Below are positions 10,926 to 13,246 of a stretch of 64,000 bases of DNA, piece by piece. Numbering within the stretch: the first letter of the stretch is position 1; each line of letters begins with the position of its first letter. The stretch spans positions 2,450,289 through 2,514,288 of the forward strand of contig NZ_KE356561.1 in assembly GCF_000415985.1 (NCBI RefSeq), read 5' to 3'. The DNA comes from Haloquadratum walsbyi J07HQW2 (GTDB lineage Archaea > Halobacteriota > Halobacteria > Halobacteriales > Haloferacaceae). Made by a program: the position numbers and the translations under genes. The notes beneath the pieces were generated by a model. The model searched no databases. It saw nothing but the letters and a program-made list of their open reading frames with translations, and had not been told where the DNA came from.

Positions 10926-11516
10926 TTACTTTCCGCGTCGACTGTTGGATCCGGTGCTTGGACGAGTATGCTCGGCACCCTTTCCACGGTTTTGAAGCCC
11001 TCGATTTGAACGACCAGCGTTCGTTAATCCTCGGAAGGCGCGACCTCTGTGTGAATCATCACAGATCCAATTCAGGTCATCATCATTCTCAATTGCAGGA
11101 TGCTCAGGGTCGACATGAATAATCTCATGCCATTTCTGTGACCCATCTTCACCAACCCAGTACGATGCTAATGTCCGAAGATTCGGATATTTCCGTGCAG
11201 CTCGTTCTTCAGCAATGCGCTGAATACTTGTTCGTCGACCAAGGCGATTGACTCCCTGTCGCTTACTTCGTCGACCGCCAGTAAATCGTTCCTTCCGTGC
11301 ACCGCCCTTCCGCACAGAGACACGGGTGACTATGATACCCTGCTTGGCTTTATATCCAAGTTCGCGTGCCTTATCAAGTCGTGTCGGACGATCAATGCGG
11401 ACGATTGCACCTTGGTCTCGCCACTCCTGTTTTCGTTGCCACTGCAACTCGGCGAGTTTACCATCGCCGGGTTGTTTCCATGCTTCTTTAATATGTGAGT
11501 AGAAACTTCGTGCCAT
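10926..11516 (-). CDS. rpl15e: 50S ribosomal protein L15e
   Basis: 196 residues, a full-length L15e found only in archaea and eukaryotes, where it binds 23S rRNA. The start is MARSFYSHIKEAWKQP, followed by the highly basic stretch GGRRSKRQGVNRLGRRTS and a C-terminal tail of Arg, Gly and Ser. Base use is more GC-rich than in its neighbours, as expected of a highly expressed gene. Only six bases separate its start codon from the stop of a GC-rich micro-ORF (11523-11628). Confidence 0.96.
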   Translation of the reverse strand: MARSFYSHIKEAWKQPGDGKLAELQWQRKQEWRDQGAIVRIDRPTRLDKARELGYKAKQGIIVTRVSVRKGGARKERFTGGRRSKRQGVNRLGRRTSIQRIAEERAARKYPNLRTLASYWVGEDGSQKWHEIIHVDPEHPAIENDDDLNWICDDSHRGRAFRGLTNAGRSNRGLQNRGKGAEHTRPSTGSNSRRGK

Positions 11517-11522
11517 CTGTTT

Positions 11523-11628
11523 TCACCACGGGCGCTTGCGATTCGGGAAGACGTCATTGACGTCTTCCCACATGTCGTCCCGAGTACTCGGGTGCCCACT
11601 GGCGTCCCGTTCGACCAGCGAGTTACAT
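11523..11628 (-). pseudogene. Cryptic GC-rich micro-ORF or structured leader of rpl15e
   Basis: Strikingly GC-rich DNA in an AT-rich setting. One minus-strand frame reads SLVERDASGHPSTRDDMW and ends NDVFPNRKRPW before a TGA six bases upstream of rpl15e. Its codon choice looks like that of expressed genes. The only plausible ATG (11628-11626) is out of frame by one T and is followed at once by TAA; without that T the product would be about 34 residues. The same DNA holds an 11-base perfect hairpin with a three-base loop (11545-11569) and a 14-base palindrome CCCGAGTACTCGGG (11579-11592). It may be a small protein gene with a damaged start, an RNA leader, or both. I do not recognise the family. 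Confidence 0.45.
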
Positions 11629-12076
11629 AAGATATCAAGCGTCTGCGTTTAATGACTTCGATGTTGGGATCCTATCCTGCTATTTTTGCTGTGTACACTA
11701 CGACTGGACATCGCCTCTGCTATTCTCATCTGCTCTTCGCGTACTCTTCTATTGGTGGTCGGTGATGTTGTATTATGTTCCAATATCACCACATACGTCG
11801 ATTATCTGACTCAGCTGTTGAGCCAACATCTACCCGTGGCGACTGGGTCAGTGTTATGATGATTAAAATATCAAACCCGACAGTTGACACGATCAGCCGT
11901 GTGGTGGTAATGATACTCTCAGGTCACCTCAACGCACGCAGGGAGCAATCATCAAGCCTCTATAATCGATTCATCGTTATCGCTGATTTGATATCGCAAT
12001 ATATCGTTTATGAACATCACTCAGCGTAGGTTAGTAGCAACTCGTTGATAGCAATCCATAAACAGGTCTTCAATAA
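11629..12076. other. Intergenic, no convincing gene
   Basis: About 450 bases. An 84-codon plus-strand frame (11775-12029) exists, but its composition is not protein-like (runs of Val/Ile/Met, no acidic bias) and it overlaps no recognisable motif. No tRNA-like cloverleaf seen. Confidence 0.4.
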
Positions 12077-12994
12077 TTATGCGACTCCATCGATTGACTC
12101 AAACTGCCCTGCAGAAATGGCGTTCGCAATAGCAACAACATCTGATTCAGCGTCAATCCGGTCAGTTGCATTCGGGTATTTCCGTTCAAAATATGTTAAT
12201 AGATTTGAAATATCACGACACAGACGCTCATGAGCGTTTTCATGATCCGTTGAGACTGCTTGTGGCCAGTCAAAGACTGTTACTCCATCTTTACTCACCG
12301 CAACATTGTATTCACTCATATCAGCGTGCACGTATCCACTATCATAGGCGCGCTGCATTTCTATGAGGATCAATTCAAGCACGCCAACAGCCTGCTGCTG
12401 TGGCAACTGCGCGCGATTGAGCTCAGTAGCTTCAAATTTTTCCATCACGATCCCATGGCGATTATGATCAATCGGCTGCGGTACCGAAACACTGGGATAC
12501 AGCGCTTCAAGAACTTCATGCTCGCGCTCGGCTGCTTTCCGGGCTGTATAAAGCCATGAAACGTGGTCATTCTCAGACGTGTAATTACGCTCGCGCATCA
12601 CCTCACGGAAATTAGTGTATCCTTCTCTGTGGAATTTTAATGCAAGCGGTTTATACGATTTTACCTCTAGGACATCGCTTTCTTTTCCGACTCCAAGCGG
12701 TGCGCCGACTCCCTCAACTGTCTCACGCTCACTGAATGTGCGGAGAGCAAGTGCGTCATATCCCTCAGCTGCGAGTGTGTATCCTTCATATTGGATTGTC
12801 TTTCGCTCAATTAATTCCCGAGTTCCACACCGATCAAGACGATAATTGACTTCCTCGGGAGATAATCCTGATAACTGTGGCAACTTCCCGCGATTAACCC
12901 ACTCGGAGAACCGCATGCCCTGCTCGACACCTGAGAGTAAGTAGAAATCTTCAGGCTCTAATTCGGTCATCACACCGGCGACATTCCGCACCAT
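12077..12994 (-). CDS. rio2: Rio2 family serine protein kinase
   Basis: 305 residues from the ATG at 12994 (MVRNVAGVMTELEPEDFYLL). In-frame codons further upstream lack coding character. A winged-helix N-terminal domain (about 1-95) is followed by the RIO kinase fold: glycine loop LGVGKESDV, ATP lysine in PLALKFHREG, catalytic loop VHADMSEYN and metal Asp in VFDWPQAV. Archaeal Rio2 takes part in late small-subunit maturation. A hydrophilic helix closes the protein. Its role is taken from the family; nothing local adds to it. Confidence 0.93.
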   Translation of the reverse strand: MVRNVAGVMTELEPEDFYLLSGVEQGMRFSEWVNRGKLPQLSGLSPEEVNYRLDRCGTRELIERKTIQYEGYTLAAEGYDALALRTFSERETVEGVGAPLGVGKESDVLEVKSYKPLALKFHREGYTNFREVMRERNYTSENDHVSWLYTARKAAEREHEVLEALYPSVSVPQPIDHNRHGIVMEKFEATELNRAQLPQQQAVGVLELILIEMQRAYDSGYVHADMSEYNVAVSKDGVTVFDWPQAVSTDHENAHERLCRDISNLLTYFERKYPNATDRIDAESDVVAIANAISAGQFESIDGVA

Positions 12995-13246
12995 ACCCAA
13001 TTGACGGCAGCAACGCCTAAAAATATCGTGAGTTCGGTCGTCTGGGCTCTGTATATCAAATATCGCTATATCAAATTTGTTGTCCTGTGAGTCTATTGAG
13101 GCTATAATGCATAGTTTCGAGCGATTGAACGGTAACCACCGCTTCAGATAGCAGTCTACCCAACTATTATGCTGTGATATCTGCAATGTGAGCGGTCTCA
13201 ATCAGTGGTAGTGGCTTAGACGGCGTTTTTACAGATGAGTAAGGCA

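Follow-up and report, generated by a model that had tools for sequence, protein, structure and literature searches.

A probable leader RNA of the eL15 family, extended by a predicted loop-tail pseudoknot, precedes rpl15e in Haloquadratum walsbyi and other haloarchaea

The window analysed here is a stretch of 64,000 nucleotides of Haloquadratum walsbyi J07HQW2, in which rpl15e lies on the minus strand and is preceded by a segment with 56-59% GC, compared to 47% in the window. An earlier note on this DNA had described the segment as GC-rich and had pointed to a frame ending NDVFPNRKRPW-stop just before L15e, a perfect 11-bp hairpin and a 14-base palindrome, and all of these were found in place. 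The frame, ..NDVFPNRKRPW-TGA on the minus strand, ends at 11523 and is followed by AAACAG (11522-11517) and the L15e ATG at 11516; the hairpin is GGGAAGACGTC AAT GACGTCTTCCC (11569-11545, minus strand) and the palindrome is CCCGAGTACTCGGG (11592-11579, minus strand). The ATGTAA that had been taken as a start-stop pair is indeed present at 11628-11623, whereas the statement that it holds the sole ATG of the frame was wrong, as another in-frame ATG at 11573-11571 opens a frame of 16 aa (MWEDVNDVFPNRKRPW). Further upstream, about 430 bases (11640-12076) without a convincing gene separate the promoter region of rpl15e from an ORF at 12077-13201 (minus strand), which we take to be RIO-kinase-like. 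The features of the locus are as follows.

10926..11516, minus strand: rpl15e, an ORF of 196 aa, the gene under the proposed regulation
11517..11624, minus strand: leader of the rpl15e mRNA (r-leader), from AACUCG to the last base 5' of the AUG; matched by covariance model R1
11523..11527, minus strand: GGUGA, resembling a ribosome-binding site, directly 3' of the pseudoknot; the apparent micro-ORF takes its "stop codon" from it
11523..11573, minus strand: apparent 16-aa frame MWEDVNDVFPNRKRPW-stop, judged non-coding
11528..11533, minus strand: 3' strand of the pseudoknot, GCCCGU, in the tail; covaries with 11605-11610
11535..11592, minus strand: RF03144 core (P2, GACAUGU/GAA internal loop, P3), cmscan 33.6 bits
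11545..11569, minus strand: hairpin P3 (the 11-bp hairpin); CGA 11577-11575 and UCG 11541-11539 pair to close it below
11579..11592, minus strand: hairpin P2 (the 14-base palindrome); CCCG/CGGG, CCUG/CAGG and CUCG/CGAG variants are all found
11594..11604, minus strand: one arm, CGCCAGUGGGC, of a competing helix, whose other arm is 11524-11533 (GCCCGUGGUG); the helix would hide GGUG
11595..11602, minus strand: 3' strand of P1, CCAGUGGG, pairing with 11615-11622
11605..11610, minus strand: 5' strand of the pseudoknot, located in the P1 loop and reading ACGGGA, of which ACGGG is paired; the strand covaries with 11528-11533
11615..11622, minus strand: 5' strand of P1, CUCGCUGG, forming 8 bp with 11595-11602
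11623..11628, minus strand: ATGTAA, the "start-stop" pair, probably a chance occurrence at about the predicted transcription start
11648..11660, minus strand: putative BRE/TATA-like box CGAAGTCATTAAA, called from sequence

The segment folds better than all 200 of its dinucleotide shuffles, with z values of -3.1 and -3.3 in two foldings. A DNA match that spans the segment and the first part of rpl15e was found in 16/16 other genomes of the genus-level group (79-87% identity), although in the two least complete of these the alignment begins within the leader or later. For a wider comparison we used the bases 5' of the rpl15e start codon in loci from genome_contigs and from related genomes, where the rpl15e homologues (80 loci) have 78-96% identity. 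The leaders have the same order of blocks across these loci: ACUCGCUGG, a loop with RCGGRC, CCAGYGGGCACCYG, a second loop, CRGGACGRNAUGUGR and a variable hairpin, then YUGAAYC, about 5-6 bases, GYCCGY, usually GGUGA, and the AUG.

Based on a scan with cmscan, the core of the leader aligns to the Rfam family RF03144 (eL15-Euryarchaeota ribosomal protein leader) over all 48 model positions, end to end, with 33.6 bits and an E value of 6.4e-5. It ends at 11535, 18 nt 5' of the L15e ATG (11516), on the same strand as rpl15e. Scanned against Rfam with default settings, the window gave no match, because this score is just below the gathering score of 33.7, and the near-threshold match was obtained from a permissive scan only. 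RF03144 scored above the cut-off in 6/10 related loci, at the same position before rpl15e, and among leaders of the same genus-level group G011 was over the cut-off with 36.8 bits and G008 just under it with 33.3. The layout of the family is also present in the window, with the P2 hairpin followed by P3 and its AUGU/GAA internal loop, and the pairs covary.

RF03144 was described by Eckert and Weinberg (2020) as a candidate eL15 r-leader with predicted autoregulation and predicted binding of eL15; it has a partial likeness to a bulged-G module in the 23S rRNA site of this protein (PMC7247131). The candidates of these authors were in general consistent with transcription start data (PMC7247131), and the structure of RF03144 was later improved in Rfam 15 by 3 covarying base pairs (PMC11701678). 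Our literature search found no experimental work on the eL15 leader family. The 23S rRNA pieces of the genome were also searched for the sequences of P1 and the tail; AACTCGCTGG was absent from them and no convincing match was seen. The 23S rRNA model itself matches this genome (G000) in five separate pieces, one set of them about 14 kb apart; the pieces include C1:990676-992196, 2222721-2223021 and 2236959-2238956, and the split could come from the search itself, from an insertion or from a faulty assembly.

Like RF03144, the haloarchaeal leader has rpl15e downstream, the two hairpins P2 and P3, and the AUGU/GAA internal loop. However, the RF03144 model starts 3' of P1 and stops 5' of the tail, whereas the haloarchaeal members add P1 and the loop-tail pseudoknot; the Haloquadratum members fall just below the RF03144 cut-off, and a Halorubrum-type leader (L057) has no match. 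The leader is best read as an extended, haloarchaea-specific member of the catalogued eL15 r-leader family. As far as the Rfam model and the main text of PMC7247131 show, it is the haloarchaeal extension, the pseudoknot and the tie to the start codon that go beyond the catalogue; the word "pseudoknot" is absent from that main text, and P1 or the pseudoknot may be drawn in its supplement.

The paired elements covary. Anchored blocks (A2) served for the pair counts, because the MAFFT alignment (A1) misplaces the 5' strand of the pseudoknot in some rows. In 47 distinct haloarchaeal block rows, 95.4% of the cells of P1, P2, P3 and the pseudoknot together were paired, and the same rows held 131 double changes, compared to 39.5 in shuffles and 3-14 when the partners were slid by 1-3 columns. 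Within P1, changes on both sides were found in 4/6 inner pairs.

In the pseudoknot the P1 loop, which in the window reads ACGGGA, can form five pairs with the tail GCCCGU. As the pseudoknot columns were anchored by sequence motif, the inner pairs are fixed by construction, and the weight lies on the variable outer pair. In the set of 150 leaders, to which divergent families were added and in which seven rows were hand-corrected and some rows repeat a sequence, this outer pair was G-C in 67 leaders and A-U in 65, whereas 4 had U-A, 2 a wobble and 12 a mismatch. The tree of these leaders required 15 changes on its 5' side and 17 on its 3' side; a tree-based sign test had 6 pairs only on well-supported branches (median p 0.125). 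The fifth pair, the second one to covary, was G-C in 130, A-U in 15 and G-U in 1 of the 150. Among the haloarchaeal families read, f37 (L175, L178, L179 and L181) diverges most, and its P1 and P2 have quite different letters. In this family the loop, ACGGU or ACGGC, is still complementary to the tail GCCGU, as read by hand from the sequences. The loop-tail pseudoknot covaries, and its position relative to the gene is also constrained: the spacer between its 3' strand and the AUG is 8-11 nt long in 139/146 leaders, and in most of them GGUGA comes immediately after that strand. GGTGA occurs in 101/146 leaders, and GGUGA or part of it is missing in 34/146. The spacing bears on a rival reading, in which the target of the leader would be transcription or the stability of the mRNA, by way of a processing site or of early termination, and not initiation. 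Transcription terminators are among the known r-leader mechanisms (PMC7247131), but the conserved 3' edge of the leader is tied to the AUG and no U-run is found between P3 and rpl15e, and we regard such an effect as quite unlikely.

The earlier note had offered a small conserved protein destroyed by a single insertion, a start-stop control element, and autoregulation of L15e as explanations, and had proposed to compare frame and structure across relatives; the comparison came out clearly for structure. The conserved RNA contains AAUCGCAAGCGCCCGUGGUGA, which can be read as NRKRPW-stop, the stop being part of GGUGA, and the frame is readable in this way in Halobellus and Halogeometricum, which are closely related. 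However, the ..RPW-stop frame is open in only 15/81 leaders, the leader lengths are spread over all three frames (30, 29 and 22 leaders by length modulo 3), no start codon is found in the matching place elsewhere, and the variation tracks base pairs and not codons. That relatives have an intact small protein which a single additional T has disrupted in this genome is accordingly highly improbable. A gene for a small protein, which would need an open frame kept across relatives together with its start codon, was rejected on the counts of frames, lengths and start codons.

The start-stop pair fares no better, as an ATG is found at that site in 2/81 leaders. A box of the TTAA, TTAT or TTTA type lies at -28 to -30 from AACTCG in 76/81 leaders, and from the spacing of archaeal promoters we infer that the transcript probably begins at about AACUCG; the ATGTAA would stand there by chance. 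Among the three explanations, autoregulation of L15e fits best, the segment belonging to a known family of predicted eL15 r-leaders. That the segment is a structured 5' leader of the rpl15e mRNA, an RNA rather than a protein, is well supported.

Additionally, we determined the distribution of the extended form with R1, a covariance model of its nested structure. The training alignment of R1 includes the leader of the window, which it matched with 93.2 bits (11515-11624, minus strand; window in the training set). R1 was found in 235/243 haloarchaeal species and in 204/205 good genomes of an order-wide sample, and, when the whole phylum was sampled, in 52 of the 53 genomes belonging to the order. 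Outside the order, the phylum-wide sample gave no comparable match, with five matches of only 19-21 bits; four of these five genomes have an RF03144 match elsewhere in the genome, and the fifth is without a listed one. RF03144 itself was matched at E 0.01 or better in 141/295 genomes of the phylum, and the leaders that we read from outside the order had the P2/P3 core without P1.

The position of the leader before rpl15e, its conservation, the covariation of P1, P2, P3 and the pseudoknot, the distribution and the promoter-like box are observed, and an explanation of the whole can be built on them. The transcription start, the binding of eL15, the direction of the regulation and the step that is blocked are proposed as follows. 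Transcription would start at about 11624-11626, and the leader RNA would fold into P1, P2 and P3. The predicted binding site of eL15 would be P2/P3 with the conserved AUGU/GAA internal loop, and the P1 loop would pair with the tail just 5' of GGUGA, in a pseudoknot that usually ends 8-11 nt before the AUG. Free eL15 beyond the need of ribosome assembly would bind the core, which is located between the two halves of the pseudoknot, and the bound core would stabilise the pseudoknot and keep the small subunit off the start codon. We consider it likely that rpl15e regulates itself in this manner, by blocked initiation. Haloferax volcanii has been reported not to use Shine-Dalgarno pairing (PMC3986360). 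Because of this report, and because 34/146 leaders have no GGUG-like site, the block is more likely steric than a masking of that one motif.

Pseudoknots at the ribosome site are found in the E. coli leaders of S4 (alpha operon) and S15 (rpsO). These bacterial leaders would resemble the proposed one in having a pseudoknot that adjoins the start codon and is stabilised by a ribosomal protein; however, they are not homologous to it, have other ligands and belong to another domain of life, and the likeness is one of resemblance only.

The fold of the leader also allows a second pairing of the tail. The minimum-energy fold of 11514-11626 contains the competing helix, which reaches into GGUG and is mutually exclusive with P1 and the pseudoknot. 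When 140 leaders were folded as nested structures with pseudoknots disallowed, the competing helix was favoured in 56 and P1 in 50, and this energy comparison failed to separate the two. The tail GCCCGY could pair either with the P1 loop, so that GGUGA stays accessible, or with a hexamer of the P1 3' arm and junction that is nearly identical to the loop; the binding of eL15 would select between these states. In one leader (L015) the loop has changed from GGG to GAG, the junction from GGG to GAG and the tail from CCC to CUC, all together. Apart from L015 the competing helix has no covariation of its own, because the letters of the junction hexamer are nearly invariant; loop and junction may resemble each other by coincidence, and the nested energies disregard both the pseudoknot and high salt. 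A choice between two states is a tentative possibility, which draws some support from a comparable choice of partners in 15/17 Methanosarcina-like leaders.

In the Methanosarcina-like rpl15e leaders GUUUCAU stands just 5' of the RF03144 core, around locus position 1500. It was found that 15/17 of them (L096, L102, L103, L107-L110, L112-L116 and L119-L121) have two copies of RUGRAAC, 11-13 nt apart and 3' of the core, both complementary to GUUUCAU. The second copy adjoins the GGUG site, and one strand has two possible partners. The eL15 leader may be a two-choice RNA switch that was built twice in archaea, although we hold this broader reading to be doubtful. The core would act as the sensor of eL15, and the outer elements as lineage-specific expression platforms: in haloarchaea one tail segment would choose between the P1-loop pseudoknot and a helix hiding the ribosome site, and in the Methanosarcina-like leaders one upstream segment would choose between two repeated partners, the second of them beside the ribosome site.

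As regards the proposed self-regulation, archaea have only a small number of known cis-regulatory RNAs. For haloarchaea the Rfam model does not extend far enough, and real members of the family are missed by it. The tie between pseudoknot and start codon, present in almost every haloarchaeon, would turn a statistical motif into a mechanism that can be tested in the genetic model Haloferax volcanii, and it raises the question of how initiation may be controlled by structure near the AUG where Shine-Dalgarno pairing is reportedly not needed.
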